DNA of 50,264 nucleotides from Candidatus Sumerlaeia bacterium. GTDB taxonomy: Bacteria; Sumerlaeota; Sumerlaeia; JABWBI01. Location of the stretch: NCBI GenBank assembly GCA_013360565.1, contig JABWBI010000003.1, positions 1 through 50,264 on the forward strand, read 5' to 3'. Positions 33,394 through 35,579 of this stretch are shown here, piece after piece. Both the position numbers and the translations under genes were made by a program. Position 1 is the first letter of the stretch. Every line of letters starts with the position of its first letter. Under the pieces are notes generated by a model that saw nothing but the letters and a program-made list of their open reading frames with translations, searched no databases and was not told the DNA's origin.

Positions 33394-34299
33394 TCAAGCC
33401 GAAGCCGAGGGCTGCGCGGAGGGTCGCATGACGGCAATGAGTCCGAGAAGGCCCAGGTTGACGAGCAGCAGCGGAGCCATCACCGGGGCGTGGCTGACGA
33501 GACGCTCCAGGCTGATCTCCCCGCGGCCCGTCAGATTCGCGTCGAGGTGCATGGCGAAGCCCAGGACACCGACGCCCATCAGCGCCACGTTGGTCCAGAA
33601 GTGAACGGAGTCGTCCGCCGGAGTGGGTTTGCGGTTGGACGCCCGCCCCAGGGTGACCGCGGTCGCGAAGGCGCCCGCCAGGACCGCGATCCACGTCGTC
33701 GGGTGAACGAACCCGCTCCGGGCATGGTCCAGCGCGCTGCTGAGCGTCGCCCCGGCGTAGCCGAGGCCCACGAGCCAGAGGAGCTGCTGGGTCTTGGTCA
33801 GGGGCGCCCGGAACTGGACCAGACCCCAGAGGTCCATTTGGCCCGAGTCGCGGGGCACTTCGTGAAGCGCGGCGAGAAGTCCGATCAGGGCGACCCCCAT
33901 GAACGCGGACGGTCCCGCGGCCGGTGGCGCGAAGATCAGCCACTCCAGGAAGCTCCCCGACGTGCCTCCCCGGACGAGCATGGCGCGCTGCCAGTGGAAC
34001 GCCGTGCCCATCAGCCCCACGGCGAGGGAGGATGCCAGCGCGAGGAGGAGCAGGACGACCTCCCCCCGCGAGGGGCGAGGCCGGAAGACGACCCAGAGCA
34101 CGACGAGACCTGCGAGGGGGCCGTGAAACACGGGAATCCACTCGTAGGCCCGGATCACGCCGTCGATGACGTGGCCGAGGAAGGTGTCCAGGCCAAGGAA
34201 GAGCAGATTCACGCCGACGAAGAAAAGCAGCGTGCGTGAGCGCGAGAGAGGGAAGCGCAGCGCCGCGACGCCGGGCAGCTCGTAGTGAAGTGCGCTCAT
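33394..34299 (-). CDS. His-rich polytopic membrane protein, partner of octaheme cytochrome
   Basis: 301 residues with about 7-8 hydrophobic helices. Histidines sit in or beside helices: H43 (FLGHVIDG), H59 (IPVFHGPLAG), H102 (GTAFHWQRA), H192 and H199, H233, H251 (FAMHLDAN) and H270. That pattern would suit a b-type heme or quinone protein, but I recognise no family and there is no CxxCH. Its ATG overlaps the end of the cytochrome gene by 4 bases, so the two are coupled and probably form one complex: the membrane protein would pass electrons between the quinone pool and the anchored cytochrome. That role is inference. Confidence 0.75.
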   Translation of the reverse strand: MSALHYELPGVAALRFPLSRSRTLLFFVGVNLLFLGLDTFLGHVIDGVIRAYEWIPVFHGPLAGLVVLWVVFRPRPSRGEVVLLLLALASSLAVGLMGTAFHWQRAMLVRGGTSGSFLEWLIFAPPAAGPSAFMGVALIGLLAALHEVPRDSGQMDLWGLVQFRAPLTKTQQLLWLVGLGYAGATLSSALDHARSGFVHPTTWIAVLAGAFATAVTLGRASNRKPTPADDSVHFWTNVALMGVGVLGFAMHLDANLTGRGEISLERLVSHAPVMAPLLLVNLGLLGLIAVMRPSAQPSASA

Positions 34300-35579
34300 C
34301 GCATCGCCTCGCCGGAGGCCGCTGCGGGGGCATGGTGGCCGCGGAGCTCCGTCGCCGCCTCGACCAGGTGCGCGGCCGAGCGGATCATCTCATAGACGCC
34401 GTGCCACTGCGTGTAGTCCGGTCCCTGCATCCAGGCGCCGAACTTCGCCGTCCGGCCCCAGTGGTGCCAGAGCTCGAAGTACTCGAAGTCGATGATCTGA
34501 TCGAAGGGCTCGGGCGTCAGATGCCCCTCCTCTTGGAGTTCGGCCATGAGCGTCTGGCTCTCCTCCACCATCTCGTTGATCCGGACGGTGAGGATGTCGG
34601 CGTCGCGGTAGAAGTCCGAGACGAAGCGCTGGCTGTGGCACTCGTGACAGACCTGCTGCATTCGCATGGCGTTCTCCTGCCACCCGGGCCGGCGCTCGCT
34701 GATCTCCGAGTGCAGGAACCACGAGAGCCGCTCGCCGACGTCATGCGTGGTCCCCTGGCGTCCGAAGCCGCTGATGTGGCAGATCGCACAGGTCGCCGCG
34801 GGGAAGTCGCTGACGGTCAGCGTGCCCGGCTCCGCCTCCCAGTGCCACGTGTGGCCCATCGTCGCGTAGGCGATGCCGTGCGGCGACTCCTCGTAGATCT
34901 CGAACTGCGGATGATCGGGCCCGATGTGGCACGCGTTGCAGGTCTCGGGCTTTCGCGCCTGCTCCAGGCTGTACTCGTGCCGCAGATGGCACGAGGTGCA
35001 ATTGCCCACCGATCCATCCGGATTGGGGCGCCCGATGCCGTGGCACTCCGCGCAGGCGAACCGCGTGATCTCGGGCCCCTCCATGGCGAAGAGCGAGTTG
35101 CGCACCGGGTCGAGGATTCCGCGCTCCTCCACCTGCTCATAGAGCGCCATGAACTCGGGGGAGTTCTCGAGGGCCTCGACGCCGGTCATCGCCACCCAGG
35201 CCGGCAGCGCGTGGCGGCTGCGCAGGAACTGATTGACCTCCGTGAGATGGCACTGGGCGCATGTCGCCGAGGTGGGCGTGGTGGCGACGAAGGTCCCGTA
35301 ATGCTCGACGGCGGCGAAGTGGTCCTCGCGGACCTCGTGGCAGTCCTGGCAGGTGACCCCTTCGACGGCGTGGGCGCTGCGCGCGTGCTGCTCGACGATG
35401 CCCGGGGACGTCCGTGCGTGGCACTCGACGCAGGCGCCGCCACCCCCCGTGAAGGCGATCCGCGTGCCCGCCGGGCCACGCTGGAAACCCTCGGGGCGCA
35501 GCTGCAGGGCCCCGATCAGAAAGACGACGCTCAGCGCGGCCGCAAACAACCCCAGCCAGAGGAGCCGTGAGGTGAACAT
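34296..35579 (-). CDS. Octaheme c-type cytochrome, hydroxylamine-oxidoreductase-like
   Basis: 427 residues from the ATG at 35579, which is preceded by a strong GGAGGAGG. One N-terminal helix (about 5-25) anchors or exports the protein; the rest is periplasmic. Eight CxxCH heme sites: C50, C77, C107, C176, C194, C214, C264 and C311 (first Cys of each). Count, spacing and the late WHHWGRTAKFGAWMQGPDY...WHG segment fit the octaheme HAO family, which oxidises hydroxylamine or hydrazine, or reduces nitrite in the epsilonproteobacterial type. In HAO a Tyr near the C-terminus crosslinks the catalytic P460 heme; Y389 or Y396 are candidates, but this cannot be settled without alignment. Confidence 0.88.
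   Translation of the reverse strand: MFTSRLLWLGLFAAALSVVFLIGALQLRPEGFQRGPAGTRIAFTGGGGACVECHARTSPGIVEQHARSAHAVEGVTCQDCHEVREDHFAAVEHYGTFVATTPTSATCAQCHLTEVNQFLRSRHALPAWVAMTGVEALENSPEFMALYEQVEERGILDPVRNSLFAMEGPEITRFACAECHGIGRPNPDGSVGNCTSCHLRHEYSLEQARKPETCNACHIGPDHPQFEIYEESPHGIAYATMGHTWHWEAEPGTLTVSDFPAATCAICHISGFGRQGTTHDVGERLSWFLHSEISERRPGWQENAMRMQQVCHECHSQRFVSDFYRDADILTVRINEMVEESQTLMAELQEEGHLTPEPFDQIIDFEYFELWHHWGRTAKFGAWMQGPDYTQWHGVYEMIRSAAHLVEAATELRGHHAPAAASGEAMR

Follow-up and report, generated by a model that had tools for sequence, protein, structure and literature searches.

In the genome of a Candidatus Sumerlaeia bacterium, a membrane-anchored octaheme cytochrome of the HAO family (P0001) is encoded together with an eight-helix membrane protein of no known family (P0002), and this pairing is conserved within one clade of octahemes. 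HAO-family octahemes occur in many uncultured lineages, and the question addressed here is the respiratory link of those without NapC/NrfH. We consider it fairly probable that the pair represents a quinol:octaheme reductase, in which P0002 would be the membrane electron-transfer subunit feeding an octaheme N-oxide reductase.

Organization of the gene pair

Both genes lie at positions 33394-35579 of the window, i.e. the whole 50,264-nucleotide stretch of DNA analysed, and all features described below are on the (-) strand. The octaheme c-type cytochrome gene P0001 (34296..35579, 427 aa), predicted to encode a nitrite/hydroxylamine-type reductase, is preceded by a strong Shine-Dalgarno sequence, GGAGGAGGT, located 8 nt ahead of its ATG. 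Its TGA stop codon shares four bases (ATGA, 34296..34299) with the ATG of the membrane protein gene P0002 (33394..34299, 301 aa), in agreement with the overlap that an earlier, sequence-only reading of this DNA had described. That reading had also proposed an anchored protein of 427 residues with eight CxxCH sites and a partner of 7-8 helices. Both descriptions hold, as P0001 contains exactly eight such motifs and one hydrophobic N-terminal helix, and the AlphaFold2 model of P0002 (mean pLDDT 91.8) displays eight long and two short helices.

A second, divergent octaheme/membrane pair is present on contig C48 of the same genome, with 45% identity between the octahemes and 33% between the membrane proteins; the membrane gene of this copy is cut by the contig end. 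Neighbours of the C48 pair (L005, G000:C48, 663-6911) are genes for a thioredoxin-like protein and two multiheme proteins, one of them large and with multiple CxxCH motifs. In the nearest genome, G001 of the same family, the pair occupies the equivalent place, beside matching ABC-ATPase and ribosome-hibernation-factor-like genes.

The octaheme cytochrome P0001

The N-terminal membrane anchor of P0001 comprises residues 2-26 (35502..35576), as judged from the hydrophobic sequence and the AlphaFold2 helix over the same residues. The CxxCH motifs start at residues 50, 77, 107, 176, 194, 214, 264 and 311, corresponding to heme 1 (C50-H54, 35418..35432), heme 2 (C77-H81, 35337..35351), heme 3 (C107-H111, 35247..35261), heme 4 (C176-H180, 35040..35054), heme 5 (C194-H198, 34986..35000), heme 6 (C214-H218, 34926..34940), heme 7 (C264-H268, 34776..34790) and heme 8 (C311-H315, 34635..34649). 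Residue 70 is His in P0001, and most Chloroflexota homologues carry Met there, within a STMAAA-like stretch, possibly reflecting an altered heme ligand.

The assignment to the HAO family, suggested already by the sequence-only reading, is confirmed by several comparisons. P0001 matches the Pfam model Multi-haem_cyto (PF13447) with an E of 1.3e-27 and HAO-family chains in the PDB from E 9e-33, the best being IhOCC of Ignicoccus (1.8e-47 with the family profile); the match to the NCBIfam HDH model falls far under the curated cut-off. Likewise, a Foldseek search with the AlphaFold2 model returned 4qo5 first (E 3.4e-12), followed by Kuenenia Kustc0457/0458, the HAO of Nitrosomonas europaea (NeHAO) and other HAO/HDH structures. 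The model itself is of moderate confidence (pLDDT 79), and only moderate where heme packing matters.

The active-site region was compared with that of NeHAO by alignment. The heme 4 motif of P0001 aligns with the motif of heme 4 in NeHAO (P460, the active site), and D222-H223 (34911..34916) is the equivalent of the catalytic Asp267-His268. The cross-linking tyrosine was located via the haoB-linked HAO of Ruegeria pomeroyi, whose alignment with NeHAO extends over almost the entire length; a short fragment of Kustc0458 used as query for the HAO C-terminus matched only itself, and the alignment obtained with a cytochrome-b-linked octaheme fell short of the NeHAO C-terminus. Tyr467 of NeHAO (by residue count in the printed chain) lies in the stretch NPGGWTYTEGW, which is aligned with QGPDYTQWHGV in P0001, so that Tyr467 is paired with Q391 (34407..34409) and Trp465 with Y389. 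The sequence-only reading had put forward Y389 as a candidate cross-link tyrosine. This residue must be dismissed, since it occupies the place of the tryptophan; Q391, invariant in 82 homologues, holds the tyrosine position, and the cross-link is absent. As Tyr467 is replaced by Q391, P0001 is predicted, on the strength of the alignment, to be a reductive enzyme.

The membrane protein P0002

P0002 contains no CxxCH motif. The ten histidines pointed out by the sequence-only reading are indeed present, but only four of them are conserved: H43 (34171..34173), H102 (33994..33996) and H192 (33724..33726), each in 77/77 homologues, and H251 (33547..33549), in 74/74 ungapped sequences. The two halves of the protein, a first four-helix, two-histidine unit at about residues 15-152 (33844..34257) and a second at about residues 160-296 (33412..33822), are homologous to each other by hhalign (probability 99%, E about 1e-17), and the alignment places H43 over H192 and H102 over H251. 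By this comparison, P0002 consists of a four-helix unit duplicated in tandem, with H192 and H251 the repeat-equivalents of H43 and H102. Positive charges are concentrated in the loops that, following the positive-inside rule, set the four conserved histidines on the periplasmic side, and this is their predicted location.

The sequence-only reading had named membership of a known quinol or permease family as evidence against its proposal. P0002 falls in none: searches of Pfam, NCBIfam and the PDB gave no family match, the weak and scattered matches of single members disagreeing with each other, and a Foldseek comparison of the model with the PDB gave insignificant matches only, with GPCRs on top. 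Profile comparisons speak against a bc-type cytochrome b (no Pfam match, hhalign probability 0.3%), CtaA/Cox15 (hhalign probability <3% against 12 CtaA-family sequences) and NrfD/PsrC (23 sequences, no significant match, probability 16% or less). No match to NnrS was found by hhalign, with an NnrS profile of two sequences only, and a search of plasmids with P0002 gave no match. Beyond the histidines, no heme or quinone signature was recognisable in P0002. In our preferred reading, which draws on these histidines and on the genomic context, P0002 would probably bind heme b and/or quinone.

Conservation of the pair

Searched with the octaheme alignment, 84,980 species genomes yielded 211 relatives, of which the best 80 were kept. 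Most of these come from Anaerolineae and other Chloroflexota; the labels Sumerlaeota, Tectomicrobia, Verrucomicrobia, Gemmatimonadetes, Actinomycetota, Planctomycetota and others apply to one member each. All eight CxxCH motifs are present in every octaheme locus. A P0002 homologue lies directly downstream and on the same strand in 79/80 of these best octaheme relatives (best 80 of 211), the lone exception, L009, being a locus that runs up to a contig edge; the intergenic gap is -4 to +15 nt in 70/78 relatives. Together with the second pair on C48, this frequency implies that the pairing is not due to chance. The co-occurrence of the two genes across genomes, which the sequence-only reading had proposed to examine, is thus evident within one clade, as the 80 loci are the closest relatives of P0001.

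Beyond that clade, 386 genomes were searched with both the octaheme and the membrane profile. The pair was found in six of them, five being the strongest octaheme matches; in the sixth (G211), the octaheme is cut by a contig end. In a reciprocal search of 400 Chloroflexota genomes with the membrane profile, three close P0002 matches were obtained, all three beside an octaheme. Most of the genomes are incomplete MAGs. In G211 (L119/L135, G211:C171, 624-2696), the membrane protein is fused in-frame to a C-terminal NnrS domain (1.5e-32), a single case; NnrS is linked to NO metabolism.

A maximum-likelihood tree of 54 octahemes places the P0002-partnered sequences, 18/18, in one clade (support 100/99), which requires one change of partner, a distribution reached in 0/500 shuffles. 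Octahemes located beside NapC/NrfH, diheme cytochrome b or Amt are placed elsewhere in this tree.

Reuse of the membrane module beside a flavin dehydrogenase

Distant P0002 homologues were detected with the membrane profile in 29 of the 400 Chloroflexota genomes. Most of them contain two four-helix units in one frame and a few consist of two adjacent frames, and both histidines of each unit are kept (51-52 units aligned). In 26/27 Chloroflexota loci inspected (L232-L258), a Gluconate_2-dh3 gene lies directly 3' of the membrane gene, and a GMC flavoprotein gene is also visible in 20 of the 27 short loci. The order membrane gene, subunit 3, GMC was seen in eight wider regions (L259-L266), and these regions (6-14 kb) contain no CxxCH gene. 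Gluconate-type dehydrogenases usually reach quinone via a membrane cytochrome c subunit. Compared with the gluconate/fructose dehydrogenase complexes, composed of GMC, subunit 3 and this membrane cytochrome c, the Chloroflexota loci have a P0002-like gene directly upstream of subunit 3 and GMC, whereas the usual cytochrome c subunit gene is not seen. Judged from gene order, a P0002-like protein thus appears to take the place expected of a c-type membrane cytochrome, beside two unrelated redox enzymes, and no other observation argues more strongly for electron transfer by P0002 than this reuse with octaheme and GMC dehydrogenase alike. The duplicated four-helix, two-histidine proteins may form a so far unnamed class of membrane electron-transfer subunits. 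Octaheme reductases and GMC flavin dehydrogenases, periplasmic redox enzymes unrelated to each other, would both use such a subunit instead of the c-type cytochromes that normally lead to the quinone pool. We see the scales as evenly balanced for and against this generalization.

Single-unit relatives of about 140 aa, with four helices and two histidines, both kept, were also found in other genomes (L123-L128, L176-L181); at L126 they form two adjacent genes. Neither cytochrome nor dehydrogenase genes were seen near them; their neighbours are uninformative, and these proteins were set aside as a clue to the cofactor.

Other membrane partners of HAO-family octahemes

The sampled relatives outside the P0002 clade include HAO-family octahemes encoded directly beside a bc-type (diheme) cytochrome b gene (L136, L139, L140, L151-L154, L158, L162, L165, L168). 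Such pairs are apparently another non-NapC membrane link, comparable in gene arrangement to P0001/P0002, but their cytochrome b is recognisably of the bc type and unrelated to P0002 by profile comparison. Small Cys/His-rich proteins are encoded beside octahemes at L140:8165-8548, L143:5572-5967 and L164:1007-1492; we take them to resemble the NO-responsive YgbA family.

In three sampled relatives (L134, L147, L149), the octaheme is directly beside an Amt gene, which shows that transporters, too, occur as membrane neighbours of octahemes. P0002 could by analogy be a channel or transporter for substrate or product (ammonium, hydroxylamine, nitrite), with a soluble cytochrome or bc complex as the electron donor of the octaheme; Amt-type proteins carry hydroxylamine in the scheme drawn for Nautilia (PMC3701875), and some loci have a gene for a bc-type cytochrome b or for a cytochrome c within a few kb. 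We regard such a function as improbable. P0002 lacks any consistent similarity to a transporter family. A redox module, rather than a channel for nitrogen compounds, is also the better match for four invariant histidines in duplicated helices and for a second use next to GMC dehydrogenases, whose substrate is quite different.

Genomic surroundings

NapC/NrfH (PF03264) gave no match in the source genome of P0001/P0002 (82% complete) or in five other pair-bearing genomes, and the matches found in 12/28 pair-bearing genomes are without exception partial, reaching at most position 105 of the 174 in the profile. For NrfA (PF02335), no full-length match was found among the 28 genomes, one strong partial match occurring in G386. 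The incompleteness of the MAGs limits these absences, as well as those of Hcp. The latter (hydroxylamine reductase) was considered as an obligate companion and rejected, being present in 8/28 genomes only, the source genome included; NnrS exceeded the cut-off in 2/28 genomes and is likewise not a general companion. Nitrogen genes do not systematically adjoin the pair, and no haoB-like neighbour of P0001 was recognised.

The commonest neighbours of the pair, CcmE/CcmF genes and Crp/Fnr-type regulators, are each present at a minority of the loci. The occurrence of CcmE, CcmF and CcmB/CcmA genes near some pairs raises the alternative that P0002 acts in maturation or assembly, e.g. in heme handling or membrane insertion, rather than as a subunit. 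The di-heme protein CtaA/Cox15, a heme A synthase, likewise consists of two copies of a four-helix unit, each with two histidines. The likeness is one of architecture alone: in CtaA the histidines are in helices 2 and 4 of each unit, in P0002 they are in helices 1 and 3, and the two families share no profile similarity. Moreover, an assembly factor would have to be specific to each octaheme clade, and the GMC enzymes next to the distant homologues have no heme c gene nearby, so that a heme c factor would be unneeded there. We therefore consider this role unlikely, and retain the electron-transfer subunit as the preferred reading of P0002.

Discussion

The sequence-only reading had suggested that an unrelated polytopic protein replaces the NapC/NrfH link between the octaheme and the quinone pool. 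The pairing, the lack of a known family, the fact that no full-length NapC/NrfH was found in the genomes checked and the reuse beside a flavin dehydrogenase all agree with this suggestion; heme or quinone binding by P0002, its contact with the octaheme, the direction and the substrate are the parts that we infer. The results speak neither for nor against the sulfur-type chemistry that the sequence-only reading had also raised. In the mechanism we propose, P0001 and P0002 would together make up a two-subunit respiratory complex bound to the membrane, with P0002 taking over the role held elsewhere by NapC/NrfH or cytochrome b. The four conserved histidines would ligate the redox cofactors of P0002, one or two in number and most likely bis-His heme b, next to a putative quinol site. 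Electrons would pass from the (mena)quinol pool via P0002 to the anchored periplasmic octaheme, where an N-oxide (nitrite, hydroxylamine or NO) would be reduced at heme 4 to ammonia or a partly reduced compound. Reduction of an N-oxide is proposed because P0001 lacks the HAO cross-link.

The complex might conversely run oxidatively, with hydroxylamine or some other reduced compound as donor and quinone as acceptor, as in canonical HAO with its quinone link. The active-site Asp/His of HAO is kept in P0001, and the module beside the GMC dehydrogenases presumably runs towards quinone. Still, the tyrosine that marks oxidative HAO/HDH is absent, as is any recognised haoB-like neighbour, and tyrosine-less relatives have been proposed or described as reductive, namely HaoA of Nautilia (PMC3701875) and a Kuenenia octaheme without the cross-link (Ferousi et al. 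2021, as characterized in the citing papers PMC10732223 and PMC12758564). An oxidative direction is hence very unlikely in our view.

NeHAO and Kuenenia HDH share with P0001 the family, the eight hemes, the heme 4 site and the catalytic Asp-His, but P0001 has no equivalent of Tyr467, so that no P460 cross-link is expected, and no haoB neighbour was recognised. The best match by both sequence and fold is IhOCC of Ignicoccus hospitalis (PDB 4qo5), a membrane-associated HAO-family octaheme that also lacks the cross-link tyrosine, with T at this position in the printed alignment. IhOCC is longer (521 versus 427 residues), and the dedicated P0002 partner is on the side of P0001; solvent extraction of Ignicoccus found no quinones (PMC4429474). 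Another parallel is the epsilon-Hao or reverse HURM system of Nautilia (HaoA and CycB), where a HAO-family octaheme without the critical tyrosine is proposed to reduce nitrite with quinol electrons supplied by a NapC-type quinol oxidase (PMC3701875). The sampled NapC-partnered octahemes and P0001 share the C-terminal motif WHHxGR...GPDYxxWHG. However, the NapC-partnered sequences are separate from the P0001 clade in the tree, and the Nautilia quinol partner is a tetraheme cytochrome of the NapC/NrfH type, whereas that of P0001 is an eight-helix protein without CxxCH.

Quinone-linked HAO-family modules are thus already known from NapC/NrfH systems, and octahemes beside cytochrome b were seen here too. 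No description of a P0002-type membrane subunit family was found in the open-access literature searched, and the family appears to be unnamed in the libraries searched. Its gene adjoins virtually all complete members of one octaheme clade, which spans Chloroflexota, Sumerlaeota, Planctomycetota, Gemmatimonadota and others; in the genomes concerned, as far as checked, full-length NrfA and NapC/NrfH were undetected. If the proposed function is correct, P0002 would provide a gene marker for an octaheme reductase route independent of NapC/NrfH, and would represent a new family of membrane subunits that serves flavin dehydrogenases as well.
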